From a virus: a stretch of 36,404 nucleotides of DNA. The notes under the pieces were generated by a model that had not been told where the DNA came from, did no database searches, and saw nothing but the letters and a program-made list of their open reading frames with translations. This document shows positions 3,462-36,118 of this stretch, piece after piece; position 1 is the stretch's first letter; each line of letters starts with the position of its first letter. Position numbers and translations under genes: made by a program. The stretch lies in IMG/VR virus record IMGVR_UViG_3300025853_000273, positions 1 to 36,404 of that record, one strand, 5' to 3'.

Positions 3462-5873
3462 ATGGCTGTCGAGAAACAGATGGAGCCATCAGACTTAGAC
3501 ATCGAAGGCACAGACGCACAAGAGATTGAAGTAGAGATTGTCAATCCCGATGCCGTGTCCATTGGTACTGACGACGGTGGGATGATAATTGACTTTGAAG
3601 GTAGCTTGACTGAAGAGCTTATTGGCCCTGAACACGATGCTAACCTAGCCGATTTCATCGATGAAGCTATTCTGCAGTCTATGGCATCTGAGCTTGTAGG
3701 TGATTTTGAGTCTGATCGTGAATCTCGACAGGATTGGGCGAGAGCCTACGTCAAAGGTCTTGATCTGCTGGGTATGAAGATTGAAGAGCGCAGCCAGCCG
3801 TGGCAGGGTGCTTCTGGTGTATTCCATCCAGTCCTAACCGAAGCAGTTGTTCGATTCCAAGCGCAGGCAATGGGAGAGTTGTTTCCTGCATCTGGCCCTG
3901 TACGCACGAAGATCATGGGTAAATTGACTCCTGAAAAGATGGATCAGGCTGACAGAATCCAGACAGAGATGAACTATCTTCTGACTGAAGAAATGACAGA
4001 ATACCGCGACGAGACTGAGCAGATGTTGTTCAAGCTACCTCTTGCGGGTTCAGCGTTTAAGAAAGTTTACTATGATCCACTAGAAGATCGCCCTGTGGCT
4101 ATGTTTGTCCCAGCGGAAGACTTCGTTGCGTCCTATGGTGCGTCAGACCTTGCGTCTTGCCCACGGTACACGCACATAATGAAGAAGACCTCTAACGAGA
4201 TACTAGAGCTACAGGTTGCAGGGTTCTACCGTGACGTGGACTTACCAGACCCAGAACCAGATTTCTCAGACATCCAAGAAAAATATGACGAGCTTGATGG
4301 GGAGCATGCAGTCATAGAAGATGATGATCGGCATACAATCCTTGAGATGCATGTCACCATGAACATGCCAGAAGAGTTTGACGATCCAGACGGTATTGCA
4401 CGTCCTTACGTCATCACTATCGACAAGACTTCCCGTGAGATTTTAGCAATCAGACGGAATTGGTATGAAGATGACGCAAAGAAAAAGAAACGACTCCACT
4501 TCGTTCATTACAAATATTTGCCGGGACTTGGCTTCTATGGAACGGGACTTATCCACCTTATCGGGGGATTGGCTAAGTCTGCGACTTCAATACTGCGTCA
4601 GCTCATTGATGCTGGTACATTATCTAATTTGCCAGCAGGTCTTAAAGCTCGTGGTCTCCGCATCAAGGGTGATGACACGCCTCTTATGCCGGGCGAGTTC
4701 AGGGATGTGGATGTTCCGGGTGGGGCTATACGTGATTCGATTACGTTCATCCCTTATAAGGAGCCGTCAGGCGTACTCTACTCGTTACTTGGAAACATTG
4801 TCGAAGAGGGCAGACGTATTGGCTCAGTTGCGGACATCCAAGTAGGCGACATGAACTCACAGGCACCTGTGGGTACGACTTTAGCCCTAATGGAGCGATC
4901 TATGAAGGTGATGAGTGGTGTGCAGGCACGTATGCATGCATCCATGAAAAACGAGTTACGATTACTAGCACGTATCATCCGTGACTATATGCCAGCCGAA
5001 TACGCATACGAGATGGACGGTGACTTTGATCGTCAACGTGATTTTGACGCTCGTGTGGACGTAATTCCTGTTTCCGATCCTAATGCTGCAACCATGTCCC
5101 AAAGAATCATGCAGTATCAAGCGGCGTTGCAGCTATCCCAACAAGCCCCCCAGTTGTATGATATGGGTAAGCTGCATCGTCAAATGCTAGAAGTTCTTGG
5201 TATTCAAGACGCAGATGACATCATCAAACTACCAGAAGATATCAAACCTGCTGATCCTGTGACTGAGAACATGATGCTCTTGAAACAAGAGCCAGTCAAA
5301 GCCTTCAAGTACCAAGACCACGAGGCGCATATCGCAGTCCATATGGCTGCAATGCAAGACCCGAAGATGCGAGAGCTGGTTGGTCAATCACCGTTCGCAC
5401 AAGCGATTGGTCAGGCTATGGCAGCACACGTTACAGAACACGTTGCGTTCCAGTACCGCCGTGAGATTGAGAAGATGCTTGGCGTAGAAATGCCAAATGA
5501 AGATCAACCGCTACCAGAAGATATTGAAATAGAAGTCTCTCGCTTGGCAAAAGATGCCGCAGAAAAGCTACTTCAGAAAGACCAGATGGAAGCGCAACAG
5601 CAGCAAATCCAACAACAGCAGCAAGACCCAGTTGTCCAAATGCAGCAGATGGAATTGCAGATGAAACAGCAAGAGTTGCAGCATAAAATCCAAATGGATA
5701 CAGCTAAACTACAGCTTGATGCAGAACGTATTTCCGCCGAGAACCAACGCGAAGGGGCGCGTCTTGGTGTGAAACTTGCCACCGATCTGGACAAATCACA
5801 ACGTGAAGACCAGAAAGAAGGCGCAAGACTTGGTATTGAAATAGCGAAGGAGTTGACGAAGGGAGATGGATGA
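3462..5873 (+). CDS. Portal protein
   Basis: This forms the ring at one capsid vertex through which DNA enters and leaves. The 803-residue product lies directly after the terminase genes and before scaffold and capsid genes, the standard place. The N-terminus is acidic (to about residue 70), followed by the portal-like core with conserved-looking stretches such as QPWQGASGVFHPV and GFYGTGLIHLIGG. The C-terminus (about 709-803) is a long helical region beginning with a Gln-rich tract and ending in two related heptad units, REGARLGVKLATDL and KEGARLGIEIAKEL. It is larger than most siphovirus portals and nearer to P22-type portals (about 725 residues), whose C-terminus forms a helical barrel. 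AGGAG lies six bases before the ATG. The last 8 bases overlap the next gene. Confidence 0.88.
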   Translation: MAVEKQMEPSDLDIEGTDAQEIEVEIVNPDAVSIGTDDGGMIIDFEGSLTEELIGPEHDANLADFIDEAILQSMASELVGDFESDRESRQDWARAYVKGLDLLGMKIEERSQPWQGASGVFHPVLTEAVVRFQAQAMGELFPASGPVRTKIMGKLTPEKMDQADRIQTEMNYLLTEEMTEYRDETEQMLFKLPLAGSAFKKVYYDPLEDRPVAMFVPAEDFVASYGASDLASCPRYTHIMKKTSNEILELQVAGFYRDVDLPDPEPDFSDIQEKYDELDGEHAVIEDDDRHTILEMHVTMNMPEEFDDPDGIARPYVITIDKTSREILAIRRNWYEDDAKKKKRLHFVHYKYLPGLGFYGTGLIHLIGGLAKSATSILRQLIDAGTLSNLPAGLKARGLRIKGDDTPLMPGEFRDVDVPGGAIRDSITFIPYKEPSGVLYSLLGNIVEEGRRIGSVADIQVGDMNSQAPVGTTLALMERSMKVMSGVQARMHASMKNELRLLARIIRDYMPAEYAYEMDGDFDRQRDFDARVDVIPVSDPNAATMSQRIMQYQAALQLSQQAPQLYDMGKLHRQMLEVLGIQDADDIIKLPEDIKPADPVTENMMLLKQEPVKAFKYQDHEAHIAVHMAAMQDPKMRELVGQSPFAQAIGQAMAAHVTEHVAFQYRREIEKMLGVEMPNEDQPLPEDIEIEVSRLAKDAAEKLLQKDQMEAQQQQIQQQQQDPVVQMQQMELQMKQQELQHKIQMDTAKLQLDAERISAENQREGARLGVKLATDLDKSQREDQKEGARLGIEIAKELTKGDG

Positions 5874-6140: not shown

Positions 6141-6509
6141 ATGTATACTGCAAACAAGGAAACAGAGGACAAGGTAGCCTCTAAACTACCTAAACCACAA
6201 GGATACAAAATCCTTATTGGCGTACCAGAAATGAGTGACAAGACCGAAGGTGGGGTTATTATGCCAGACGGTCTTAAATCTGCAGAAGAAACAGCATCTA
6301 TTATTGGTTTTGTAATGGCATTAGGCCCAGATGCGTATGCAGATGAATCAAAATTTCCAAATGGGGCTTTCTGTAAAGAAGGTGACTTTGTAATCTTTCG
6401 ATCCTATTCAGGCACTCGATTCAAGATTCATGGAAAAGAGTTCAGACTTATTAACGACGACACTGTAGAAGCAGTAGTCGATGATCCACGGGGGTACGCA
6501 AGAGCATGA
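6141..6509 (+). CDS. GroES-like co-chaperonin
   Basis: The 122-residue product resembles the lid of the GroEL folding chamber. Phage versions, such as T4 Gp31, replace host GroES and let GroEL fold the large capsid protein. Features visible are the N-terminal strand KPQGYKILIGVP (18-29), a mobile-loop region with GGVIMPDG (37-44) that would dock on GroEL, a GFVMALGPDAY strand and turn (56-66), and the barrel strand GDFVIFRSYSGTRF (81-94). The length is about 25 residues more than bacterial GroES (about 97). It sits between portal and scaffold, consistent with a role in capsid protein folding. AAGG precedes the ATG. The stop overlaps the scaffold start as ATGA. Confidence 0.85.
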   Translation: MYTANKETEDKVASKLPKPQGYKILIGVPEMSDKTEGGVIMPDGLKSAEETASIIGFVMALGPDAYADESKFPNGAFCKEGDFVIFRSYSGTRFKIHGKEFRLINDDTVEAVVDDPRGYARA

Positions 6510-20465: not shown

Positions 20466-22424
20466 ATGGCTAAAGGCAAAGGCGGTTTTCTAGGTCAAGA
20501 CGGCCTTAACGCTCCAGATGAACCAACAGGTGTAAGCGCAAGCGCAGGTAGCACGCAGGCCACCGTAAGTTTTACTGCTCCTGAAAATACTGGTGCGTCA
20601 GCAATTACTGGTTATAGGGTGCAGTCTGATAATGGTGATGGTTACACGAATAACCTTTTTAACTTATCGGTTGCGAGTTATGACAATATCAGCTTTAGTG
20701 TAAATAGCCAAGATTTAGTCCCAATGGATGTTCGTTTTAAGTCAGATGGCACTAAAATGTACGTTTTGGGCAGAGGTAATGATCGCGTCTACCAATATTC
20801 TCTAAGTACAGCATTTGACATTTCAACTGCGTCTTATGATTCCGTATCATTTTATGTCGGCTCACAAGACGCTAATCCTTACGCTTTTGAGTTTAAGCCT
20901 GATGGCTCAAAGTTTTACATGGTAGGAAATTCTAATGATACGGTGTATCAATATAGTCTTTCTACTGCTTGGGATATGTCAACTGCTTCCTACGATAGCG
21001 TCAGTTTTAGTGTATCTTCTCAAGACACAGCACCATACGGGGTGACGTTTAACGATGACGGAACCAAAATGTATATTTTGGGTTTAATAAACGATAGCGT
21101 TTTTCAGTATACTTTATCTACAGCTTATGATTTATCTACAGCTTCTTATGACAGTGTTAGCTTTTCGTTCACCAGTCAAGATAATGCCCCTCTAGGTTTT
21201 GTTTTCAATAATGACGGAACAAAAGCCTTTATGAGCGGAAATACGGGGGATTCTGTATATCAATATACTTTAAGTACCGCATATGACATATCTACTTTGT
21301 CCTATGATAGTGTGTCTTTCTCTGTTTCGCAGGAAACTAACCCACAAGGCATAACTTTTAACAATGACGGCTCCAAAATGTATATTTTGGGGTCTACTTC
21401 CGATACGGTTTATCAATATACATCAGGTGCGGGTGGCAGTTACCCTACGGAATCACCTATTACTGTCTATGGTCTAACCAACGGCACAAGCTACACGTTT
21501 AACGTCTGGGCAATCAATGCGTCTGGTTGGTCTGCTCCTAGTGAGGCGAGTGATGCGGTTACTCCACAAGCCACTCGTGCGCTCTGGAGTATGTACGGCA
21601 ATAGCGTTACTGAAATAGAGTATGTCATCGTGGAAACGCTTGGCGATACAACTGATTTTGGTGATTCTACACAGGGTCGATACGGTGGTGGTTCAGTGTC
21701 TTCTTCTACCAGAGGCGTTTGGGCAGCGGGGTATACCAATACATATGTAAACACTATGGATTATGTGACCATAGCAACTACTGGTAACGCATCTGATTTT
21801 GGTGATTACGGGTATAGCGCTAGATGGGTAGGCGGTGGAGTTTCTAACGGAACAAGAGGAATTTTTACTGGAGGGTATAACGGCTCCACAATAACACAAA
21901 ACAATTACATAACTATTGCCTCTACTGGAAACGCAACTGGCTTTGGCAGCACGGATAGCAACGCAAGTATGTATTCTTGTGGCGCAGCTTCGCCAACTCG
22001 TGGCGTTTGGGCGGGATACCAAAACACAAGTTTTTCTAACATAAATAACATTAACTACGTAACTATCGCTACTACTGGAAACGCCAGTGATTTTGGTGAT
22101 CTAAGCGTTACCCGTGCGAGAATCGGTGCTTTTGGTAGTGATACAAGGGCAGTGTTCGGTGGCGGTGATGGTGGTACAAACGTGATTGACTACATCACAA
22201 CAGCATCCACAGGAAATGCTACGGACTTTGGTGATTTGCTTACCGCTGGATATGGTGGTTCTGGAACAAGCAGTAACGTGCGAGGCATTTTTGGCGGATA
22301 TGACACCGCGCAATTACAATATGTAACTATCGCAACCACTGGTAATGCGGCTGATTTTGGTGATCAAACGCAGGCAGATCGGTATACCGCAGCTTGTTCT
22401 AGCAATCACGGAGGACTTCAATAA
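20466..22424 (+). CDS. Fibre with split Fn3-like domain, 52-residue and propeller-like repeats
   Basis: The 652-residue product has two parts. The first is a fibronectin type III-like domain starting at about 16 (APDEPTGVSASAGSTQATVS) that is interrupted near residue 60 and resumes near 326 (TESPITVYGLTNGTSYTFNV to SEASDAVTPQ). The interruption is five repeats of exactly 52 residues, with Tyr of the SYDSVSFSV core at 72, 124, 176, 228 and 280, and FNDDGTKMYILG-type strands. The second part (about 385-652) has six repeats of about 43-51 residues with TGNATDFGDL and TRGVFGGG-type cores. It ends SSNHGGLQ. These repeats recur in the next two genes. AAGGGG precedes the ATG. A receptor-binding or host-surface role is inferred. 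Confidence 0.8.
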   Translation: MAKGKGGFLGQDGLNAPDEPTGVSASAGSTQATVSFTAPENTGASAITGYRVQSDNGDGYTNNLFNLSVASYDNISFSVNSQDLVPMDVRFKSDGTKMYVLGRGNDRVYQYSLSTAFDISTASYDSVSFYVGSQDANPYAFEFKPDGSKFYMVGNSNDTVYQYSLSTAWDMSTASYDSVSFSVSSQDTAPYGVTFNDDGTKMYILGLINDSVFQYTLSTAYDLSTASYDSVSFSFTSQDNAPLGFVFNNDGTKAFMSGNTGDSVYQYTLSTAYDISTLSYDSVSFSVSQETNPQGITFNNDGSKMYILGSTSDTVYQYTSGAGGSYPTESPITVYGLTNGTSYTFNVWAINASGWSAPSEASDAVTPQATRALWSMYGNSVTEIEYVIVETLGDTTDFGDSTQGRYGGGSVSSSTRGVWAAGYTNTYVNTMDYVTIATTGNASDFGDYGYSARWVGGGVSNGTRGIFTGGYNGSTITQNNYITIASTGNATGFGSTDSNASMYSCGAASPTRGVWAGYQNTSFSNINNINYVTIATTGNASDFGDLSVTRARIGAFGSDTRAVFGGGDGGTNVIDYITTASTGNATDFGDLLTAGYGGSGTSSNVRGIFGGYDTAQLQYVTIATTGNAADFGDQTQADRYTAACSSNHGGLQ

Positions 22425-23371
22425 TGCCCAATTATCAAGGTGTATGGAACCTCTCCACGCAGTATCAGAATGCTAGTGGTTGGCCTCTTCCGCCTTTGGG
22501 CGGCGATGCCGCATACTTTCAACGAACACAAGCTACTACGAATGCCATGCAGTATGTATTTATTTCCACAACGGGAAATACAAGTGTTTTTGGAAACCTA
22601 ACATATAATTCTTATGGTAGCGCAGGGTGTGGTTCTGCGACAAGAGGAATAATACGACACGGAAACACTCAAAATACAAGCTACAAGTATATTGAATATT
22701 TCACTCTATCCATACTAGGGTCAAATGGCGCAAACTTCGGTGACGCTACTGTTGCTATTCGTGAAATGGGGGCTTTAAGCAACAGCACAAGAGCGGTTTT
22801 TGGGGGCGGTACTGAGCCAAGCCCTACAAACGTAATGGACTACATTACAATAGCCACAACCGGAAACGCAACGGATTATGGGGATTTATGGGGAACTGTA
22901 GACGGCGTATCGGGTACAGCTTCTTCGACAAGAGGGTTGTTTGCTGGTGGGCGAATCGTAAACACAAAGCAGAATGTGATAAATTACATTACTATAGCAT
23001 CTACAGGAAACAGTACGGACTTTGGTGATCTAACTTTATCAAGATATGGTGTTGGCGCTTTATGTAATGGAACGAGAGCCGTTTTTGGTGGTGGAGCAAT
23101 AGATTCTGGTTTGACCGCTAATAATACAATAGATTATGTGACGATTGCCTCAACAGGTAATGCTTCCAATTTTGGTGATTTAACCGTAGCACGATATTCA
23201 ACATCAGGTACGTGCAATGCTACAAGAGGATTGTTTGCTGGCGGCTGGGGCAGCAATGTAATAGACTATATCACAATTGCGTCCGTAGGAAACGCTACTG
23301 ATTTTGGTGACTTGACTTCTAATGTTTTTTCTAATGCCGCTACTTCAGGTTCTCACGGAGGACTTTCATAA
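22424..23371 (+). CDS. Kelch-like repeat fibre protein, paralogue 2
   Basis: The 315-residue product consists of a short N-terminus (YQGVWNLSTQYQNASGWPLP) and six repeats of about 48 residues. Each has the form YITIASTGNATDFGDL followed by a TRGVFGGG-type strand, with the FG/YG core near residues 56, 105, 152, 200, 250 and 294. It ends with SGSHGGLS. The repeats look like blades of a beta-propeller. The start overlaps the preceding stop (TAATG), and both junctions share GGAGGACTT. It appears to have arisen by duplication with its neighbours. Probably an exposed fibre tip or adhesin; ligand unknown. Confidence 0.78.
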   Translation: MPNYQGVWNLSTQYQNASGWPLPPLGGDAAYFQRTQATTNAMQYVFISTTGNTSVFGNLTYNSYGSAGCGSATRGIIRHGNTQNTSYKYIEYFTLSILGSNGANFGDATVAIREMGALSNSTRAVFGGGTEPSPTNVMDYITIATTGNATDYGDLWGTVDGVSGTASSTRGLFAGGRIVNTKQNVINYITIASTGNSTDFGDLTLSRYGVGALCNGTRAVFGGGAIDSGLTANNTIDYVTIASTGNASNFGDLTVARYSTSGTCNATRGLFAGGWGSNVIDYITIASVGNATDFGDLTSNVFSNAATSGSHGGLS

Positions 23372-24408
23372 TGCCTAAACGTTACCAAGGAAACATTATT
23401 ACCGATACTCCGACTGATCCTGATGGAAATTATGAGAACAGCGTAGCAAGCGGCGTGTGGTCACTAGGGGAAGCATTAGCCTTTGGTAAGCAAGGACTTT
23501 GGCCCACAGCGGGTAATGCCGCGCCGAAAGCCTTATTTATGGGAGGAGAATACTCTGGCGGCATACGAGTAAATACTGTTGACTCTATAGATATAACAAC
23601 TCTTGGCAATGCAACAGATTTCGGAGACTTACTAAGTATTGGTTCGTTTGCTGCTTGCAATATTGCATCTTCTACGCGTGGCATAAATTATGGCGGTGGT
23701 CAAAACGGCACTAACGTAATTCAGTATTTCACAATAGCAACTGCGGGTAACGCTACAGACTTTGGTGATGCCACTCAAAACATAAATGAAAACGCAGGCA
23801 TTAGTAATGAAACACGAGGCATATCAGCTTGTGAGGGTACTTCAAACCGCATTGAGTATATAACAATAGCTTCTACGGGAAATGCGACAACCTTTGGTAA
23901 TGATTTGACATTGTACCGCGTTAGGCTTGCAGGGGCTAGTAGTTCAACAAGAGGTTTAATTGCAGGGGGATTTGGTCAGTCACAATACAGGAACCAAATA
24001 GCTTACATCACAATAGCAACTACAGGTAATGCTACAGATTTTGGGGATTTAGCTTATGCACGTTCTGATTTAAATGGCATGTCTACTGATACAAGAGCTG
24101 TGTTTTCAGGCGGTTACAACGGCAGTTATCAGAGCTATATGGATTATGTGACAATAGCTTCAACAGGTAATGCGACAGGATTTGGTAATCTTTCTGACTA
24201 TTACTCTAGTTGGGGCTGTACTTCTGGGGGTACAAGAGGCGTGGCAGCGGGGCCAAGTAAGGCACCTACTGGGGAGTCTCCTCTTAATACAACTATAATT
24301 GATTACATCACAATCCCGACCGCTGGCAACGCGGCTGACTTTGGGGATTTGACGGTTTCACGAACAAGAGTAGCTGCATGCTCAAATTCACATGGTGGTT
24401 TACAATAG
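23371..24408 (+). CDS. Kelch-like repeat fibre protein, paralogue 3
   Basis: The 345-residue product has an N-terminal module KRYQGNIITDTPTDPDGN and ASGVWSLGEALAFGKQGLWP (to about 48), then six repeats of the same type as the two preceding genes, with cores LGNATDFGDL, AGNATDFGDA, TGNATTFGND, TGNATDFGDL, TGNATGFGNL and AGNAADFGDL. It ends NSHGGLQ, like paralogue 1. The TAATG overlap couples it to paralogue 2. The N-terminal module differs from paralogue 2, so the three proteins may attach differently but present the same kind of head. Receptor-binding is inferred. Confidence 0.78.
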   Translation: MPKRYQGNIITDTPTDPDGNYENSVASGVWSLGEALAFGKQGLWPTAGNAAPKALFMGGEYSGGIRVNTVDSIDITTLGNATDFGDLLSIGSFAACNIASSTRGINYGGGQNGTNVIQYFTIATAGNATDFGDATQNINENAGISNETRGISACEGTSNRIEYITIASTGNATTFGNDLTLYRVRLAGASSSTRGLIAGGFGQSQYRNQIAYITIATTGNATDFGDLAYARSDLNGMSTDTRAVFSGGYNGSYQSYMDYVTIASTGNATGFGNLSDYYSSWGCTSGGTRGVAAGPSKAPTGESPLNTTIIDYITIPTAGNAADFGDLTVSRTRVAACSNSHGGLQ

Positions 24409-24413
24409 GGAGA

Positions 24414-25301
24414 ATGAAATTGCCAAAAGACACAAATAGTTCAATTGCACTAACTACACCAGACATCAATATTCAGCTTCCACAAGCAAAGCCTGAATAT
24501 AAGTCTATGCTGGCTAACATTGCCGACAAAGCCCCTGCGATCGCACAGGCATCTAGTAACTTCTACAAGTCACACTCACAGATGATGTCGGTGACGCTCG
24601 ACGTTACGGCAATCACGCCGATCCGTTCTGTTAAGCACAGCCTCGCAGAGATTGAAAAGACTAAGTCGGCTTTGCAAGAGGGCTACTTCCGAATGAAGAA
24701 GGAAGAGGTCAAGCTCAAGAAGCTAGAGCGTAAGCTGGAAGAAGAAACAGACGATCTTGAGCGCGAGATGCTTGAGATTAAGATCAATGAAAAGCAGGCG
24801 CAAGCGGCGTCTTCTCGTGGCTACGTTGAAGCGGCAGTCCGCAAGCTAAACTTCTTTACCAATCAGTATGAAAACCTGATGAAGAAGATCGGCAAGGATG
24901 AGCTTACTGAGGCTGATTATGAGCTTGAGGAAGTTAAATATCACATTATGACCTGTATGAAGCAGGCACTAAACGCAGCGCGTAGTCGCAATGGTATGAT
25001 TGACGAAGGAAATCTAATCTATGTGTTTGACTTGGGGATCAACGCAGCGCAGGCACAAGCAGAAGTTTATTCTTACCTGCAATGGGAAAACGAAATAATC
25101 AAGCAAGGTAAGGCACCAGAGCATCACCACACGGTTCAGTGGCTAGAGGCGTGTGCAGAAAAGTGGGCGCATTGTCCTGCGGCCTTTGCAAATAGCCGTG
25201 GATTTGATATCTTTGATCCAACGTCTTTGACGAACACCCCTCAACTAGAGGATAATTCAGATGCCGCTCCAGAAGCTACAGTTCCAACCGGGGATAAATA
25301 G
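24414..25301 (+). CDS. Coiled-coil protein, unknown
   Basis: The 295-residue product has a mixed N-terminus, a strong charged coiled coil (about 75-135 of this start, with KKEEVKLKKLERKLEEETDD), and a helical C-terminal half including NQYENLMKKIGKDELTEADY and LQWENEIIKQGKAPEHHHTV. It lies between fibre and nozzle-like genes, so a tail or assembly function is likely, but I recognise no family. The start is uncertain: 24414 follows GGGAGA very closely, TTG at 24420 has better spacing, and an ATG at 24378 lies inside the previous gene. The end overlaps the next gene by 41 bases, the largest overlap in the window. Confidence 0.7.
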   Translation: MKLPKDTNSSIALTTPDINIQLPQAKPEYKSMLANIADKAPAIAQASSNFYKSHSQMMSVTLDVTAITPIRSVKHSLAEIEKTKSALQEGYFRMKKEEVKLKKLERKLEEETDDLEREMLEIKINEKQAQAASSRGYVEAAVRKLNFFTNQYENLMKKIGKDELTEADYELEEVKYHIMTCMKQALNAARSRNGMIDEGNLIYVFDLGINAAQAQAEVYSYLQWENEIIKQGKAPEHHHTVQWLEACAEKWAHCPAAFANSRGFDIFDPTSLTNTPQLEDNSDAAPEATVPTGDK

Positions 25302-27492
25302 AGAGTCTACCTCATACAGCAATGAGGGCGGCTGGTACGACTGTGACAAAGTTCGCTTTCGTATGGGATACCCTGAAAAGATAGGTGGCTGGACAAAGAT
25401 AGGTAACAACTCTTTTTTGGGTTCTTGTCGTGCGCTGCATTCGTGGCGCACTATTGCTTTGGACAATTATCTTGGGCTTGGCACAAGCGACAAATATTAT
25501 ATTGAAAGCGGTCAAGGTTATTATGACATCACCCCTATACGTTTGAATGCACCGCCCAATGAGAACATTGAAGTAACCCCGTCAGGTGTAGCGGCTTCAG
25601 GTGGTGTGGGAGACATTACTGCTAACACTGATATTGGAATTATTACAGACCCACCTTCAGGCACAGGTCAGGTCGGTCAGGTTTCTGTAAACACTGACGG
25701 CGCAGATGTTATGGTGGTTGTACCAGCAAGCGATAGCTTGTCAGCCACTGGGTTAGTTGGCTCAGTAACAATAGGTGGCAATCTTGACACATCTGTGACA
25801 CTGACAGGCGTTGAGGCGAGTGCAGGTGTTACAGCCCCCGCGACAGTATCCGTAAGTGAAGGTGTTCCAATTATCACTTTTGCTGCTGTTGATGGATCAT
25901 CTACGATTACAGTAACTCACTCTGAACATGGCGCAGTCACTGGAGACTTTGTTACCTTCACTAATGTTGAGAGCCTTGGCGGGAATATAACGGCGGATAT
26001 TCTCAACCAAGAGTATAAGATTGATGAGGTTTTGACTGGCGGTACTTACCAAATCACGGCAAGAGAAGTTAATTCTGTAGCTGATATTACTGTTGATGGC
26101 GTATATACACCTGTAGCAGTCACAGCAAATTCTTCTGACACAGGTGGTGACGGTGGTGATTATACGGTAGGTGATTATCAAATAAATGTGGGCTTAAACA
26201 CCTCTGTCTTTGGCAATGGTTGGGGCGCAGGTACTTGGTCTCGCGGTGCGTGGGACTCTGCTGCATCTATTGATGTGTTGACCGATACATTGAGACTTTG
26301 GTCTCACGATAACTTTGGTGAAGATTTACTCATTAACATTAATAATGGAAACATATATTACTGGGACGCATCTGCCGTTAATCCTCTTGAAACAAGAGCG
26401 ACAGCAATTAGCGATCTTACTGGGTCTATCGACGCACCTATTGTAGCAAACAAAGTTATTGTTTCGGATGTTGACAGACACGTAATTGCTTTTGGTGCAA
26501 ACCCATTAGGTAGCACGACACAAGACCCTCTGCTTATTCGCTTCTCTGATCAGGAAAACGTACTAGACTGGAGGCCGACTACCACAAATACAGCAGGTGA
26601 TTTGCTTGTGGGTTCTGGTTCTCGCATTGTAACAGCAGTAGAAACACGGCAGCAGATTATTGTTTTTACTGACGTATCTGTCCATACAATGCAGTATCTT
26701 GGGCCACCCTTTACATTTGGAATCAATATGATCTCTGAAAACGTAACGATAGCGAGTCCTAACTCTGCCATATCTATTGAAGACAATGTGTACTGGATGG
26801 GTAAGAACGAGTTTTATGTATACACGGGTGCGGTTCAAAAACTACCTTGTACTGTGAGAGATTATGTATTCAGTGATTACAACGAAGATCAGGCAGAAAA
26901 AATATTTGCAGGTTCAAATACTGCGTTCTCTGAGGTGTGGTGGTTCTACCCATCTGCGGACAGTGATACGGTAGACCGATACGTTGTTTTTAATTATCAA
27001 CAGAACATCTGGTATTACGGCACATTGGATCGGGGTGCTTGGATTGATCGTGGTGTTCAGGACTATCCGATTGCTGCGGGGGTAGACGGCTATTTATATT
27101 ATCAAGAGAATGGCTTTGATGATGGCAGCACGTCACCCTCCACAGCAATAACCGCACACATAGAATCTAGTCAGTTTGATTTAGGGGACGGTAATAACTT
27201 CTCATTTGTAAGCAGAATTATTCCCGACATAACCTTCAGAAGCTCTAGTGTTAACAATCCATCCGTTGTTTTTACAATGAAAGCGAGGAACTTTCCGGGC
27301 GGCGACTACCTTCAAGACGACGACAGCACAGTAACAAAAACTTCTTCCGTACCAGTAGAGCAGTTTACCAATCAGGCATATGTTAGATTGCGGGGTAGGT
27401 CGATGGCACTTCGTGTAGAGTCTACCGAAACGGGTGTTGCATGGAGACTGGGTTCTCCACGTATGGATGTCAGGCAGGATGGGCGTAGATAA
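25261..27492 (+). CDS. Tail nozzle/hub-like protein with repeat insertion
   Basis: The 743-residue product starts LQKLQFQPGINRESTSYSNE and GGWYDCDKVRFRMGYPEKIG, and ends FTNQAYVRLRGRSMALRVES with GVAWRLGSPRMDVRQDGRR. This pair of ends is familiar from marine podovirus tail proteins that I associate with P22 gp10-type hubs or SU10-type nozzles, whose body is a beta-propeller-like barrel closing the tail. The body has many beta strands (FSEVWWFYPSADSDTVDRYV, VVFNYQQNIWYYGTLDRGAW). At about 104-200 it carries an insertion of 22-residue-type repeats (SGVAASGGVGDIT, SATGLVGSVTI, TGVEASAGV) like those in the LamG-like protein. Ribosome site AGAGGAT lies inside the preceding gene. Confidence 0.7.
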   Translation: MPLQKLQFQPGINRESTSYSNEGGWYDCDKVRFRMGYPEKIGGWTKIGNNSFLGSCRALHSWRTIALDNYLGLGTSDKYYIESGQGYYDITPIRLNAPPNENIEVTPSGVAASGGVGDITANTDIGIITDPPSGTGQVGQVSVNTDGADVMVVVPASDSLSATGLVGSVTIGGNLDTSVTLTGVEASAGVTAPATVSVSEGVPIITFAAVDGSSTITVTHSEHGAVTGDFVTFTNVESLGGNITADILNQEYKIDEVLTGGTYQITAREVNSVADITVDGVYTPVAVTANSSDTGGDGGDYTVGDYQINVGLNTSVFGNGWGAGTWSRGAWDSAASIDVLTDTLRLWSHDNFGEDLLININNGNIYYWDASAVNPLETRATAISDLTGSIDAPIVANKVIVSDVDRHVIAFGANPLGSTTQDPLLIRFSDQENVLDWRPTTTNTAGDLLVGSGSRIVTAVETRQQIIVFTDVSVHTMQYLGPPFTFGINMISENVTIASPNSAISIEDNVYWMGKNEFYVYTGAVQKLPCTVRDYVFSDYNEDQAEKIFAGSNTAFSEVWWFYPSADSDTVDRYVVFNYQQNIWYYGTLDRGAWIDRGVQDYPIAAGVDGYLYYQENGFDDGSTSPSTAITAHIESSQFDLGDGNNFSFVSRIIPDITFRSSSVNNPSVVFTMKARNFPGGDYLQDDDSTVTKTSSVPVEQFTNQAYVRLRGRSMALRVESTETGVAWRLGSPRMDVRQDGRR

Positions 27493-30344: not shown

Positions 30345-31790
30345 ATGGTTCTGCCTCTGTTATTTAGTATGGGTCTTCCCGCATTAGCTGGTACTGGTGC
30401 GCTTGGTGCTACACTTGGTGCCATGTCAGTACCCGCACTTGCTGGCATCGGGGCAGGATTGGGATCGTTTATACAGACAGGTGATCTTGGTGAGGGCATC
30501 CAGACAGGTCTTACATCTTTCTTGGGTGGAAAGATTCTTGGTGGCCTTTCTGGCTCAACATCTCCTGCGGCAGTAAGCACAGCTCCCGCTGCTCAGGCTC
30601 CTGCTACAGGTGGATTCCTTCAAGCTGGCCCCGCTGCAACAGAAGTGGCAAAGCAGGGTGCCACAGGGTTTGCGGGTAAGTTACTAGGGCCAGACCTTGC
30701 GGGTAAGCAGTTCTTTGACTCCACTATCGGTGGCGCAGTTGGCTTAGGTCAGCAAGCATTCATGCCTGCTTACATTGGTCAGACCATGTCAGATGCGTTT
30801 GCATATAACCGTGCGGCAGAAGATGCAAAGAAGAAGGATGACGAGGAGAAGGAAGCTGGAAGGCCACCTATGCCGAACCCAATGCAGGTAAGCTACAACC
30901 CTGATCCTTATGCATCAGGTGGTGGTGAGGGACTTTACTTCCAATATACACGTCCGCCACGCAGAGATGGCTACGAGCCACAATACCCATACTACTATGC
31001 AGAGGGTGGATTAGTTGAGCTTGGAGAGCAGCAACGCATGCTAAGGGACACGCCTATGCAAGCAATGGGCGGTCATCCAATGTTCTCAAGTCTTGGTCAG
31101 CAACTAGCTAATGCAGTCACAAGTCATTACGGTCAAAAAGTTCCACCCTTCATCAAGAAGATAGAACAGGACGCTCGCTCTGAATTTGGAGATGATATCT
31201 TTGTGCAGCAAGCATCACAGGTTCCAACTCTAGGTGGCAATAAAGGTGCGCAGGTAACAAATCCTACTCAAATAGATCAACGTAAGATGAACCTGTATGA
31301 TCTTTTAGGTCAGCAAAATTCTCCGTTTAGAGATACAGTTGTTGGGATGGCTGAAGGCGGTGAAGTAGATATGGTGATGGAAGAGAATGGCATGAATGAG
31401 AAGGATGTCATTGTTGAGGCCATCGAAGCAATCAAAGGAATGTCTGAGCAGCCAGAGATAGCACTTGCTATGTTTGTTCAGAAGTACGGCGAGGACGCAC
31501 TGCGCGATCTTGTCGGGCGAGTGCAGTCGGGAGAACTAGATGACACTGTCGCTCGTTTTGAGGAAGGTGAGAAGGGAATGGTTCGTGGGCCGGGCGATGG
31601 TTCTGGTGTAGACGATATGGTTCCTGCAACACTTGAGGGTGAGCAAGATGTTCTCTTGTCTGATGGGGAGTTCGTTTTGAGGAAGAAGACTACCGATGCT
31701 TTAGAGAAGGCATATGGCGGTGGATTCCTTGATATTGTTAACCGTGCCGAAGAGGAAGCTCCAGAGAAACTTCAACAAATGGTGGGATAG
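30345..31790 (+). CDS. Internal virion / ejection-type protein
   Basis: The 481-residue product has a hydrophobic Gly/Ala/Leu-rich N-terminus (1-70, e.g. LPALAGTGALGATLGAMSVP and GIGAGLGSFIQTGDLGEGIQ) that could insert in membranes. The middle is Pro/Tyr-rich (about 180-220), and the C-terminus has acidic helices and the motif RGPGDGSGVDDMVPATL followed by GEFVLRKKTTDALEKAYGGG. That last motif I know as a recurrent end of marine phage proteins in this region. Its position after lysis genes, before other large proteins, suits podovirus proteins packed in the head and ejected with DNA. GGAG precedes the ATG. Confidence 0.65.
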   Translation: MVLPLLFSMGLPALAGTGALGATLGAMSVPALAGIGAGLGSFIQTGDLGEGIQTGLTSFLGGKILGGLSGSTSPAAVSTAPAAQAPATGGFLQAGPAATEVAKQGATGFAGKLLGPDLAGKQFFDSTIGGAVGLGQQAFMPAYIGQTMSDAFAYNRAAEDAKKKDDEEKEAGRPPMPNPMQVSYNPDPYASGGGEGLYFQYTRPPRRDGYEPQYPYYYAEGGLVELGEQQRMLRDTPMQAMGGHPMFSSLGQQLANAVTSHYGQKVPPFIKKIEQDARSEFGDDIFVQQASQVPTLGGNKGAQVTNPTQIDQRKMNLYDLLGQQNSPFRDTVVGMAEGGEVDMVMEENGMNEKDVIVEAIEAIKGMSEQPEIALAMFVQKYGEDALRDLVGRVQSGELDDTVARFEEGEKGMVRGPGDGSGVDDMVPATLEGEQDVLLSDGEFVLRKKTTDALEKAYGGGFLDIVNRAEEEAPEKLQQMVG

Positions 31791-32203
31791 TGAGAGTTAG
31801 CTTGGTGCCGACAGAGGCAGTAGGCCATGTATGGAAGGATGTTGATAGAGTACTAAAGAAGGCGGTAGCCACAGTAGATAACAAAGCTGAAATGATAGAC
31901 ATATTAGACGGCATTTACGATGGCACTTACGTTCTTTGGGTTGTGATAGATGAGCAAGATGATGTAATTGCTGCATTCACTACACGGCTTATAGTATATC
32001 CTCAACGGAGAGCCTTGGCTTTAGACTGGGTAGGCGGGACGCGCATGAAAGAATGGGAAGATCAGTTGATCGACACTATGCGCCGATACGCAAATGAGTT
32101 AGACTGTAGTCATCTAGAAGGCTATGGACGGAAAGGTTGGGGTAGAGCTTTGAAGAAATATGGATTCTATCCTGAGTACATAGCCTACCGAATGGAGTTA
32201 TAA
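31790..32203 (+). CDS. GNAT-like fold protein (T7 gp13-like, putative)
   Basis: The 137-residue product has the strand order of a small acetyltransferase-like domain: VLWVVIDEQDDVIAAFTTRL (48-67), then LALDWVGGTRMKEWEDQLID (76-95) and a C-terminal HLEGYGRKGWGRALKKYGFY (108-127). Related proteins, including T7 internal virion protein gp13, have this fold and are thought to lack a proven catalytic role. The usual acetyl-CoA loop (QxxGxG/A) is not evident, so enzymatic activity is doubtful. The start is a GTG sharing a base with the preceding TAG stop. It lies between two ejection-type genes. Confidence 0.65.
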   Translation: MRVSLVPTEAVGHVWKDVDRVLKKAVATVDNKAEMIDILDGIYDGTYVLWVVIDEQDDVIAAFTTRLIVYPQRRALALDWVGGTRMKEWEDQLIDTMRRYANELDCSHLEGYGRKGWGRALKKYGFYPEYIAYRMEL

Positions 32204-32204
32204 G

Positions 32205-33956
32205 ATGGGCAAGGGCGGTTCAAAACAACAGGCACCTACTGATAGCACGGTACGTCAAACAAACCTACCTGAGTACGCTGATCCGTACTTTCGTCGGATG
32301 CTGCAGGGTGCCGAAGAAGCCCTTATGCCATTTCAAGATGATCTGAGTAGCCCGATCTACGATGACGCAGGTAACATCACAGGCTTTGGTCAAAAGTCCA
32401 CTTACATGCCGTATCAAGGTGAGCGCATTGCGCCATCTTCTATGTATGGGGATATCCAAGCATCTCGTGCCATGACACGCGGTATCGCACAGTCTGGTAT
32501 TGCAGGTATGCCAGAAGCTATGGATGCAGCAAGATATGGTATGGGGTATGGGCAAGAAGCACTTGCTGGCCTATCTGGTCTTGCCAATTATCAGACTGGT
32601 GACTTTTCTGCATATGAGCCAACATCAATGCGCGGAACTTTTCAGGCTGCTGATACGGGCAGTTTTGCGGATGAGTTCCAAGCTGTTTCACCCAATAGAT
32701 ATACAGGCTTTAGAGAAGCTGAGTTCACTCCGTTTGGTGGATTTGATGAGTATCAGTTCCGTGGGCCATCAGAGTTTAGTCAGTTTGAGTTCCGCCCAGA
32801 CTATCAATTCCAACAGTTTCAGTTCCAACAGCCTGAGAGATTTACCTCTGGAGCCGCACAGCAATATATGTCTCCTTACATGGATGCAGTTGTTCAAGAG
32901 CAAAAGCGTGGAGCCATTCAGGATTTTGAACGAAGCCAAGCAGGTCGAGATGCAGCGGCAGTACAAGCGGGCGCGTTCGGTGGGTCACGTCAAGCCGTAG
33001 GGCAGTATCTCGCGGAAGAGGGGCTACAAGAACAACTTGGCGGCATCGAAGCGATGGGTCGTCAACAAGCGTTTGAGCAAGCAGCGCAGCAATTTGGCCT
33101 TGATCGTGCGGCTCGTATGGAAGCTGAAGCTCGTCAAGCAGGTGAATTTGGCAGGGTTCAAGCAGGTCAAGCTGGCGAGCAGGCTCGTGTTGACCAAGCT
33201 CGCTACACTGAGTTGGCATCTCGTGAGCAGGCGCAAGCCGCAGAATATGCTCGTGCAGGGGATCAAGAGGCAGCAGAACGCGCTCGTGTACAGGCAGCTA
33301 AATATCAAGACTTGGCGCGTATACAGCAAGGACGCGCAGCAGAGATGGGTCGAGTTCAGGCAGCCCAAGCATCGGAAAATGCTCGTGTGGATGCAATGCT
33401 ACAGCAGGAAGCGGCAAGGACTCAGGCAGGTCGTGTAGCTGAGTTGGGTCGTGCGCAAGGTCTGAGTGCCTCAGAGATTGCAAGAATACAAGCTGCAGAA
33501 GCAGGGGAGCAAGGTCGCCTTGATACCCTTGGTGCATCAGAGTTAGCTCGTATACAGCAAGCAATAGAACAGTCTCGTCAGTTTGGGGCAGGTCAAGGAC
33601 TCGCCGCATATCAAGCAATGATGAGTGGCGCAGGTCAATATGCAGGGCTAGGTGCGGGTCTCGCTAGTCTTGGTGAGCGTCAACGTGCAGCAGATATTCA
33701 GGGCGCACAGCTACTTGAAACAATTGGTCGTGATATCCGTGCAGAGGATCAGGCGCGTCTTGATCTGGCATACGAAGACTTCTTGCGTCAGCGTGACTAC
33801 CCAATCACACAGTATGAACGCATGGCAGGTATCCTACGCGGTGTGCCAGTAACGCCGAATGTGGAGCAGCAACGCTTTGCAAGCTACAACCCAATTCAAC
33901 AGGCACTGGGTGCAGGTATATCGGCTCTAGGTTTGTATAAAGGTCTATCGGCATGA
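32205..33956 (+). CDS. Ejection-type protein with 11-residue repeats
   Basis: The 583-residue product starts LPEYADPYFRRMLQGAEEAL (about 21-40), a type common at the start of marine phage tail/ejection proteins. A middle Phe-rich segment at about 181-211 alternates aromatic residues. It is followed by MSPYMDAVVQEQKRGAIQDF and AGAFGGSRQAV, also typical. Residues 316-458 are 13 continuous 11-residue repeats starting with (G/A)R(V/I)(Q/D). The rest (about 470-583) is Gly/Ala-rich and helical with a Pro-rich tail. The repeats predict a very long helix. Stop overlaps the next start (ATGA). Probably ejected with DNA into the cell; the helical region may span membranes or the periplasm. Confidence 0.7.
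   Translation: MGKGGSKQQAPTDSTVRQTNLPEYADPYFRRMLQGAEEALMPFQDDLSSPIYDDAGNITGFGQKSTYMPYQGERIAPSSMYGDIQASRAMTRGIAQSGIAGMPEAMDAARYGMGYGQEALAGLSGLANYQTGDFSAYEPTSMRGTFQAADTGSFADEFQAVSPNRYTGFREAEFTPFGGFDEYQFRGPSEFSQFEFRPDYQFQQFQFQQPERFTSGAAQQYMSPYMDAVVQEQKRGAIQDFERSQAGRDAAAVQAGAFGGSRQAVGQYLAEEGLQEQLGGIEAMGRQQAFEQAAQQFGLDRAARMEAEARQAGEFGRVQAGQAGEQARVDQARYTELASREQAQAAEYARAGDQEAAERARVQAAKYQDLARIQQGRAAEMGRVQAAQASENARVDAMLQQEAARTQAGRVAELGRAQGLSASEIARIQAAEAGEQGRLDTLGASELARIQQAIEQSRQFGAGQGLAAYQAMMSGAGQYAGLGAGLASLGERQRAADIQGAQLLETIGRDIRAEDQARLDLAYEDFLRQRDYPITQYERMAGILRGVPVTPNVEQQRFASYNPIQQALGAGISALGLYKGLSA
33150..33578 (+). repeat. Thirteen 33-base (11-residue) repeats
   Basis: The encoded residues 316-458 divide without gaps into 13 units of 11 residues. 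Examples are GRVQAGQAGEQ, ARVDQARYTEL, ARIQQGRAAEM, GRVQAAQASEN and GRLDTLGASEL. All but two (ASREQAQAAEY and ARAGDQEAAER) keep R at position 2 with Q or D at position 4. Units 1-2 and 7-8 are almost the same, suggesting duplication of blocks. Confidence 0.85.
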
Positions 33957-36118
33957 ACATAATTGAGTTACAGGACAGCTTAAAAGACTTACCAGACAGC
34001 GCATTGATGAAAGAGATGCAGATGCCTACGGGGACTGCACCACAGTTTCTTGTCCTGAGTGAACTTAAACGCCGCAAACGTATGCGTGATGACTTCCAAC
34101 GCCAGCAAAACTCTAACATGCCGACCGTAGCAGAAGAAGTTGTCACAGCCGCAGGTATGCCACAAGAAGGCATTATGGGCGCAGCACGTGCGATGGCACC
34201 GAATACAAACGTAGCCCAGAATACAGGTATGGACATGGCAGCACCAGTCCCTGCCACACGCGCACCGCAACCACAAATGATGGCAGATGGTGGTACCGTT
34301 AGAATGCAGACTGGCGGTTTTGCTGCTCGTCCCGGCCCTATGCTAGGCGGCACCGCGACAGCTATTGCTATGTTGCGTGAGAATTATCCAGATGTGTACG
34401 AACAGTACAAAGACGATCCAAATGCGTTGGCTTACGCAGCGGCACAACTAGCAGAGTCTGCAAGAACCCCAGAGCTAACAGGTTTAGAAGAACTTGAGGC
34501 TCCAAGAGATTACGACCTTCTCCAGAGTTTGTTTACAGACCCGTCTAACCGCGCCGTTACAGAGAAGCAAAGAGAGATTGCTGCTACCCAAGACGAACGT
34601 GAGATCGCAGCTCAAATAGAAACCGCAAATAAACTACGTGGTATGTCAGAAGATGACCCGATGTTTACTGAAGGTTCTTTGGTTGAAATGCTTGCAGGGA
34701 CACCAGAAGGCGGGTTCCCACGCAAAATACCTGTGACGAGTGTAGAAGGTAGCATGGTCTCTCCTGAGCTAGACGACTACTTACCTCCTAGCGATATAGA
34801 ATTACCACCTCAAGATATGGGCATCCGTTCACTATCTGGTTTTGGTGAGGTTCCACAAGCTCCCACAATGGATGCAGGGTTTACCGCACCAGAGACAGAC
34901 TTCTCTCTCGAACCGGGTAGTCCCGCCGAAACCGATGCAATTCGTGAGTATTTGCGGGGTGAAGGGTCAAGGAAACCGGGCCTAATCGACGATCTTGATC
35001 GCGGGGCAGTTGCTTCAGATAGAATTAGAGAAGATAGTATTGGTGCTAGAGAAAGTTTATATTTCCCTACTAGCAACGATATTATTAGGAGTTTAGACGA
35101 GGAAGACCTTATCCCAGACATGCTAAACAGACGCGCTCAAGAGTATCTGCAGAGCGATATGTACACGCCGCCAGAAGAGATTTATGATCTAGGGCCAAAA
35201 GGACGTATTAAGTACGAAACTGAAGACCCTGCAGAGCGTGACAAGTTGTTTGCAGAAACAGCACAACGTGAGTTCTTAGAACGTCAGGCAGCAGATGCAG
35301 CGGCAGAGCAACGTGCGATAGATTTAGACGCGCAGCTTCAAGCTGAAAGCCGTGCAGCAGAACGTATCGGCGACAAGATTGCATCCGATCAACCAGAAGA
35401 ACCTGTGGGTGTAGGAGAACAATTAGCTGCCTTCATAGCTGGTAAAGTAGGAGAGGCTCAAGACTACCTTGATGAGCGCAAGATAGTTAGAGAAGCTGAT
35501 AAATCTAGCGAAGTAGTTCTTGGCGAAGGCGCAGAGATTACTCCACAAAAAAGCCCAGAAGCAGCGGCTGCACAACAAGAGATTGAAAATCTACGCAAGC
35601 AAATTGCAGAACTATCTAAGTCTGGTAGCGGCGGTACAGCAGGCGAAGCGGCGGTTATGAAAGCCCTATCTGCAAGACAGAAAGCAGCCGAATCAGACAA
35701 GTGGATGGCACTAGCACGTACAGGTGCAGCGATCATGGCATCTAAATCACCCACACTTGGCGGTGCAGTCGGTGAAGGTTTGGGTGTTGGTCTTGAGTCA
35801 CTATCTAAGTCTAAGAAGCAGGCACAGGATTATGAGATTGCTATGGCAAAAGTTAGGGCAGCTATGGCGCGTTCAGGTCGAGCTAAAGCTCTCCCTGCCA
35901 GTGCGCTTACATCTGCTAGAAGTGCAGTAGAAGCTGCACAAGAATTAGTGCTTTCAGCAACAACAGACCCCGAAAGATTAGCCGCGCAAAGAACTCTTGA
36001 CGAAGCAATAGCACGAGAAAATGCTTTAAAACGGATATTCGATGCTTCTTATGGTGTTCCTGTTGCTAACACAAAAGGTGCAGGTGGCGTTAAAAACATC
36101 AACCTAACAGGTAAATAA
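33953..36118 (+). CDS. Large internal virion / ejection-type protein
   Basis: The 721-residue product starts MNIIELQDSLKDLPDSALMK (1-20), then LVLSELKRRKRMRDDFQRQQ (about 32-51), and QMMADGGTVRMQTGGFAARP, a motif like those seen in marine phage ejection proteins. A low-complexity acidic middle (about 240-330) leads to charged helices (AADAAAEQRAIDLDAQLQAE, AAAAQQEIENLRKQIAELSK) and a C-terminus with MALARTGAAIMASKSPTLGG and GEGLGVGLESLSKSKKQAQD. It is mostly helix and disordered segments. The start is within the preceding stop (ATGA). Position and layout fit the large internal proteins of T7/P22-like phages; no transglycosylase motif is seen here. Confidence 0.65.
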   Translation: MNIIELQDSLKDLPDSALMKEMQMPTGTAPQFLVLSELKRRKRMRDDFQRQQNSNMPTVAEEVVTAAGMPQEGIMGAARAMAPNTNVAQNTGMDMAAPVPATRAPQPQMMADGGTVRMQTGGFAARPGPMLGGTATAIAMLRENYPDVYEQYKDDPNALAYAAAQLAESARTPELTGLEELEAPRDYDLLQSLFTDPSNRAVTEKQREIAATQDEREIAAQIETANKLRGMSEDDPMFTEGSLVEMLAGTPEGGFPRKIPVTSVEGSMVSPELDDYLPPSDIELPPQDMGIRSLSGFGEVPQAPTMDAGFTAPETDFSLEPGSPAETDAIREYLRGEGSRKPGLIDDLDRGAVASDRIREDSIGARESLYFPTSNDIIRSLDEEDLIPDMLNRRAQEYLQSDMYTPPEEIYDLGPKGRIKYETEDPAERDKLFAETAQREFLERQAADAAAEQRAIDLDAQLQAESRAAERIGDKIASDQPEEPVGVGEQLAAFIAGKVGEAQDYLDERKIVREADKSSEVVLGEGAEITPQKSPEAAAAQQEIENLRKQIAELSKSGSGGTAGEAAVMKALSARQKAAESDKWMALARTGAAIMASKSPTLGGAVGEGLGVGLESLSKSKKQAQDYEIAMAKVRAAMARSGRAKALPASALTSARSAVEAAQELVLSATTDPERLAAQRTLDEAIARENALKRIFDASYGVPVANTKGAGGVKNINLTGK

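Follow-up and report, generated by a model that had tools for sequence, protein, structure and literature searches.

Coupled repeat lengths point to an adjustable antiparallel hairpin rod in a DNA-ejection family of short-tailed phages

A 583-residue protein encoded in the window, the whole stretch of 36,404 nucleotides analysed here (IMG/VR record IMGVR_UViG_3300025853_000273), has conserved ends and a hypervariable middle made of repeat zones that keep strict registers and whose lengths are coupled to one another across homologues. We read it as an adjustable-length antiparallel hairpin rod in a DNA-ejection family of short-tailed phages, an explanation to which, taken as a whole, we assign a probability of about 0.55. 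The protein belongs to a marine virus of bacteria and is probably among those injected ahead of the viral DNA. The coupling is exact enough for the architecture to be read from lengths alone, including which segments are adjacent, in which direction they run and what axial rise the proposed strand has.

Repeat zones and the coupling of their lengths

The sequence-only reading had singled out residues 316-458 (33150-33578) as 13 ungapped units of 11 residues, and on the ORF translation this division is borne out, with (G/A)R at the start of 12 of the 13 units and the full (G/A)R(V/I)(Q/D) motif in 8. In self-comparison of the protein, identity at lag 11 is 0.295 vs. 0.126 ± 0.027 in shuffled sequences, and none of 5000 shuffles reaches this value over lags 2-29; identity at lag 22 is higher still (0.36), and the natural unit is therefore a pair of hendecads. 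The 13-unit run thus stands, but the array is somewhat longer (14 units, about residues 300-456) and the reading was incomplete, since three coupled repeat zones of the same protein, namely two 7-residue arms and a Phe/Tyr-rich array, had been missed. The arrays flank a conserved 79-residue head in mirrored order (Table 1). Mean pairwise identity among 20 length types is 69% in the head and 25-28% in the shaft arrays, with the values for the two bases given in Table 1; the ends of the rod are conserved and the shaft arrays are hypervariable in sequence. The final helix of the C-terminal base is rich in Gly, Ala and Leu (QQALGAGISALGLYKGL). A tandem repeat at the DNA level was rejected, as TRF reports none spanning the array, which argues that the array is old or strongly diversified.

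Table 1. Position and basis of the features of the window considered in the text.
Feature	Coordinates	Strand	Basis
Portal protein	3462..5873	+	phrog_1216, E 6.8e-39
Nozzle homologue, short-tail context	25261..27492	+	PDB 9nwi, E 9.6e-18; 8zkm and 8zkk 'nozzle', E 3e-9
Neighbour, 481 aa, hydrophobic Gly-rich N-terminus, ejection-type context	30345..31790	+	Order as HTVC023P gp79-gp80-gp81
Neighbour, 137 aa, phrog_25629 (unknown function)	31790..32203	+	Conserved position directly before the rod gene in most loci examined
Rod protein, 583 aa, PHROG 4287-like 'DNA ejection protein' family	32205..33956	+	ORF and profile match
N-terminal base, conserved, residues 1-89	32205..32471	+	Mean pairwise identity 62%, 20 length types
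N-terminal 7-residue-step arm, residues 90-128	32472..32588	+	Length matched to C arm in 39/39 homologues; helix 102-127
Phe/Tyr-rich array of 11-residue period, residues 129-220, proposed extended strand	32589..32864	+	Aromatic coincidences, length coupling
Fixed head, residues 221-299 (YMSPYM ... GAFGGSR ... FGLDRAA), two helices with GAFGG turn between	32865..33101	+	
Hendecad array, residues 300-456, 14 units	33102..33572	+	Lag-11 identity and homologue lengths
C-terminal 7-residue-step arm, residues 457-495 (SRQFGAGQ ... to ADIQGAQ)	33573..33689	+	Length matched to N arm in 39/39 homologues
C-terminal base, conserved, residues 496-583	33690..33953	+	87-88 aa in 20/20 length types; pairwise identity 76%
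Next gene, 721 aa, ejection-type context	33953..36118	+	Position

Scanning IMG/VR turned up 11 close relatives and querying with an alignment over 550; further scans led to 138 distinct proteins with the core motif. Distances were measured between landmarks chosen by regular expression, M (MTRGIA-like), T (Y.TG-like, with several variants), Y (YMSPYM), G (GAFGGSR), F (SRQFGAGQ) and Q (ADIQGAQ), and the length rule was derived from the 39 distinct proteins that carry every anchor and represent 20 distinct length combinations. Two distances are fixed: Y-G is 35 in 138/138 proteins, and Q lies 87-88 from the end of the protein in each of the 20 length types that have every anchor. By contrast with these, the arrays vary, and they do so by rule. 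The G-F distance, which covers a head helix and the hendecads, equals 3 mod 11 in all 39 proteins (13 lengths), a register without stutters, and the F-Q distance, or C arm, equals 4 mod 7, again in 39/39 (6 lengths; arms of 32-67 residues). The N arm (M-T), measured between separate anchors, is exactly as long as the C arm in every one of the 39, and the strand array (T-Y) has a length of 24 + (G-F - 69)/2, with residuals of at most 0.5 residue in most types and 4 at the maximum; the type represented by L004 has 4 extra strand residues. Regression of strand array on hendecads over the 20 combinations gives a slope of 0.509 ± 0.003 (r = 0.9996), that is, 11 residues per 22, and none of 100,000 permutations matches the coupling.

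Comparison of unit number among homologues had been proposed together with the 13 units, and the array indeed differs only by whole 11-mers, with 13 lengths and about 0 to 21 extra units in the 39 homologues. The expectation that homologues would share the period holds for the anchored array-bearing ones, all of which keep the 11-residue register, but not for the many homologues of 285-313 aa, in which the array is absent.

Pairs of relatives show the same matched changes. Over 573 aligned residues, L018 and L021 share 97.7% identity, and their sole difference is +33 in the strand array and +66 in the hendecads. In the pairs L012/L013, L014/L025 and L008/L026 each arm is longer by a single 7-mer in one partner (+7/+7), the former two pairs also differing by 1-2 residues near the N-terminus, and L032/L037 and L007/L025 differ by +11/+22. 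In a gap-placement scan at the DNA level the paired inserts lie at a similar distance from the base in four of the five strand/hendecad pairs, while in the fifth, L018/L021, they fall in the same half but about 50 Å apart. Because the insert positions fit the antiparallel order, we rejected a model in which strand array and hendecads run parallel.

It could be argued that the coupling arises from the alignment anchors, chosen as they were by regular expression and with several variants at T, or from shared descent. We regard such an artefact as extremely improbable. The two arms are anchored separately and are still equal in 39/39 proteins, and unanchored pairwise alignment of the near-identical pairs yields the same matched indels. 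Moreover, slope and correlation survive independent contrasts, computed on a tree built from the fixed parts: 0.504 with r = 0.9998 for strand array vs. hendecads (at least 18 changes) and 1.0 with r 1.0 for N arm vs. C arm (at least 9 changes), the 7:7 zone and the 11:22 zone changing independently of each other (r -0.13). The rule is also obeyed by further proteins measured with HMM blocks, 47 of 54 falling within 1 residue of integer solutions, many of them being of the short form that has no hendecad array. L079, L080, L193, L043, L040, L219 and L221 deviate from the rule by 1.5-5 residues, perhaps owing to small loops or misplaced anchors. Separately, nine relatives of 968-1400 aa (L042, L061, L082, L100, L120, L122, L158, L195 and L198) carry long extra N- or C-terminal parts; a fusion of the rod with a neighbour gene was rejected, as blastp of the window's neighbours found no match in them, and the seven that were scanned for Pfam domains contain none.

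A hairpin model of the rod

The hendecad consensus is (A/G)(A/G)x(A)(A/S)E(L/x)(A/G)R(V/T/I)(Q/D), in which Glu (84%) and Arg (85%) recur at set positions, and in long members two hendecad types alternate (GISLDEAARVQ and QAEAAELARTQ), one pair per 11-residue strand unit. Proline is absent from the hendecad arrays (0 in 3296 residues, 39 homologues) and occurs 123 times in the 2102 residues of the strand arrays, where aromatic coincidences peak at lag 11 and then at lag 8. The Ala/Gly/Ser face of the hendecads has a period of 98.25 degrees per residue (11/3). Overall hydropathy of the array peaks at 131 degrees per residue (11/4) instead of the 98 degrees of a simple amphipathic hendecad coil, and for the aliphatics, too, 131 degrees is the strongest period, 98 degrees ranking second or third. 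In the array of the window (33102-33572), which shows this hydropathy peak, polar residues take up 4 of the 11 positions, spread around most of the helix, a pattern not usually seen in a simple amphipathic helix and one that would fit contacts on more than one side.

AlphaFold2, run on an alignment of 55 sequences, places helices at 215-255, 260-350, 354-417 and 422-546, around the GAFG turn, and models the hendecad array as helix with pLDDT up to 96 and short breaks at 351-353 and 418-421. Together with the lack of proline and the small-residue face, this supports a long, nearly continuous helix, in line with the sequence-only reading, although overall confidence in the model is low (pLDDT 64, pTM 0.31) and that of the short homologue L010 is no better (pLDDT 57, pTM 0.25). 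The strand array (residues 129-220) is modelled as coil at a pLDDT of about 40, with no confident structure, as would be expected if the strand packed in a groove of an oligomer; its placement along the hendecad helix is a proposal. Fold comparison of the low-confidence model returned only generic long helices (ESCRT-III, chemoreceptors, F-BAR), and matches in BFVD had meaningless TM-scores, so neither was taken as evidence.

Given a helix rise of 1.5 Å per residue, a slope of 0.509 implies a strand rise of 1.5/0.509 = 2.95 Å per residue, which is that of an extended chain; the hendecads cannot be the extended partner, because the other array would then need more than 6 Å per residue. That the N and C arms are of equal length speaks for an antiparallel pairing, and the nested order of N arm, strand array, fixed head, hendecads and C arm is the order of a hairpin. 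With the arms side by side, a viable indel in one partner would come with a matching one in the other, 7 residues for 7 between the arms and 11 in the strand for 22 in the helix. Cumulatively, we consider it very probable that the protein is a length-matched antiparallel hairpin rod, and both the hairpin and the packing of strand along helix are strongly inferred. In such a rod the chain would leave the conserved base as an outward helix of 7-residue steps, continue outward as an extended Phe/Tyr-rich strand and reverse at the conserved helix-turn-helix head with its GAFGGSR turn; the return leg would be the long, straight hendecad helix packed against the strand, followed by a second helix of 7-residue steps that pairs with the first before the chain ends in the conserved base. 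The 7-residue arms of L006-L008 and L012-L015 are glycine-rich (GMGAQRE; GMNVGRL) and resemble glycine-zipper helix packing.

Family, genome context and possible role

The 'ejection-type' label that the protein had been given from the sequence alone is borne out at the level of annotation only: 30 of 31 family members match the PHROG 4287 'DNA ejection protein' profile (best E 1.5e-20; window protein E 6.8e-4), a name that is an annotation, not an experiment. The PHROG 4287 proteins HTVC023P gp81 (278 aa) and UMO76004.1 of Planktothrix phage Pag-Yong1 (316 aa) match the family profile at E 2.6e-15 and E 2.2e-53, respectively, and share the GAFGG turn; both are short and have no large arrays. 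Searches of PDB sequences with the rod protein and its family (phmmer and profile) returned nothing relevant, the profile matching none beyond E 0.69; known ejection proteins are widely divergent. Pfam gave no match, and hence no C-terminal Peptidase_S74 domain, in the rod protein of the window. A distant homologue in MW202496 does end in an S74 domain, and its neighbours are annotated as a 'phage stabilization protein', a 'DNA injection protein' and a 'putative internal virion protein', the last of which has a transglycosylase domain. The first of these names we take to be that of P22 gp10, which would put the homologue at the position of the P22 needle gene.

In the window the rod gene stands eight genes downstream of the nozzle gene, after the endolysin, in the order endolysin, Gly-rich 481-aa gene, 137-aa gene, rod gene, 721-aa gene. 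The order matches gp79-gp80-gp81 of HTVC023P, where gp81 is a short homologue of the rod, and an arrangement of 338-523 aa, 137 aa, rod and 625-886 aa recurs in most of the related loci examined. The capsid protein is of the Mu gpT/HK97 type, the C-terminal stretch of the portal has a weak likeness to the P22 portal barrel (PDB 3lj5, E 0.04; 9pdp, E 0.011), and the terminase is nearest to those of phage 023Pt_psg01 and pelagiphages HTVC027P and HTVC023P. Several side observations concern other genes. The 137-aa neighbour (31790..32203) looks acetyltransferase-like by eye. A gene for a GroES-like co-chaperonin (6141-6509; phrog_3188, E 3.9e-14) lies between the portal and capsid genes, a position common to HTVC023P and Pag-Yong1. 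A 652-aa tail-region protein (20466-22424) has weak fibronectin III and beta-propeller (lactonase) matches, and neighbours at 22424-24408 have a short phrog_26444 motif in common. Among database records, OQ594354.1, OL906435.1 and PP438419.1 bear different names and hosts (Synechococcus, Planktothrix, Planktothricoides) but have the same length of 65,014 and identical match scores, and look like one genome deposited under three names.

What sets the length of the rod bears on its role. Portals 73-94% identical to that of the window, with full frames of 806-817 aa, accompany rods of 310-682 aa in 8 records, which means that the portal does not determine how long the rod is; by inspection, the lengths of the neighbouring 481-aa and 721-aa genes do not track it either, and a ruler matched to portal or neighbours was rejected. 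Conserved ends together with a portal-independent length suggest that the rod joins two conserved partners across a distance that the portal does not fix, and the known place of variable distance is, we infer, the host envelope. It is there that the ejection proteins gp14/15/16 of T7 and gp72/73 of DEV build extended channels of helices (PMC11784390, PMC10925440), and those of T7, PhiM1 and DEV are found on or around the portal before ejection (PMC11784390, PMC11440229, PMC10925440). We slightly favour a role in genome delivery. Several copies would assemble, perhaps as staves of a tube or bundle, and be ejected with the neighbouring proteins, extending the short tail through the host envelope, and rod length would thereby adapt to an envelope distance. 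That the rods form an actual trans-envelope tube is possible, though we lean against it.

Three other accounts of the rod have to be weighed. Slippage may expand the arrays, with any length tolerated as long as the arms match and length itself being functionless; hypervariable arrays (25-28% identity) between conserved ends, and close relatives that are 99 residues apart in length, fit such neutral drift, which nevertheless leaves the matching of the arms unexplained, so that the hairpin is needed anyway, and sits poorly with two zones that change independently. We consider it rather doubtful. Somewhat less likely still is a tail needle or fibre, in which the hairpin would be a trimeric plug or fibre below the nozzle and vary in length as host-contact appendages do. 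P22-like needle shafts vary by whole heptads (11 vs. 16) and have the N-terminus folded back on the coil (PMC3741392), and the MW202496 homologue both carries at its C-terminus a domain typical of trimeric fibres and follows a 'phage stabilization protein' gene. The distal head of the rod, however, is among its most conserved parts (69% identity, invariant spacing of 35), unlike a receptor-binding tip; the DNA-ejection profile matches 30/31 members, the gene of the window lies behind the endolysin rather than adjoining the nozzle gene, and needle shafts are single parallel helices that have no paired arms.

An internal-core spacer, packed as a rod on the portal inside the capsid and reflecting packing geometry only, appears least likely of the three, and quite improbable. 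The portal association of T7, PhiM1 and DEV ejection proteins before ejection (PMC11784390, PMC11440229, PMC10925440) would suit it, but with a near-constant portal (806-817 aa) and neighbours that do not track the rod, none of the internal virion components seen changes with rod length.

Returning to the hairpin rod of an ejection family, the coupling suggests a component of the virus that evolution is free to lengthen or shorten, both arms changing together. If the rod is an ejection conduit, abundant aquatic phages would alter the reach of that conduit by as much as about 35 nm among close relatives whose portals are almost identical, and what sets ejectosome length would become directly testable. 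The pairing of strand along hendecads, if true, would be a useful natural template for length-programmable protein rods. Tentatively, and with the odds rather against it, we propose a new rod architecture, in which an extended, Phe/Tyr-rich strand runs along a hendecad helix of up to about 35 nm in a strict 11:22 ratio, in tandem with an independently adjustable 7:7 pair, and in which paired insertions reset the reach of the conduit to suit the envelope.

Comparison with known systems

A search of the open-access literature turned up no account of a strand array held at 11:22 to a hendecad helix, of an ejection protein with length-coupled arrays or of coupled-length rulers, although this absence does not prove novelty. 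Paired heptad indels in an antiparallel hairpin, on the other hand, are already known from the cytoplasmic hairpins of bacterial chemoreceptors, which fall into length classes set apart by paired heptads (12-32 pairs; PMC6628036); unlike the rod, these have only helix-helix pairing, with no strand/hendecad zone, and an unrelated function. The P22-like tail needle gp26 is also a thin rod with a shaft that varies by whole heptads between relatives (PMC3741392), but it is a trimeric parallel coiled coil with tips of differing types and has neither matched antiparallel arms nor a strand array.

Among ejection proteins, T7 gp14 can be likened to the rod by description, since after ejection its antiparallel helices, with the turn touching the nozzle, form an outer-membrane channel (PMC11784390); no length-coupled arrays are described for the gp14/gp15-gp16 ejectosome, in contrast to the rod. 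Protein H of phiX174 likewise has long, Gln/Arg-rich helices with hendecads followed by heptads, which make a decameric DNA-translocating tube across the cell wall (PMC7354561). The order of hendecads and heptads is the same as in the rod and the chemistry is similar, H being lined with amide and guanidinium groups, whereas its helices are parallel and single, with a fixed complement of 3 hendecads and 11 heptads and no paired strand. No sequence relation of the rod to phiX174 H was found, and we take the likeness as one of analogy, not homology.
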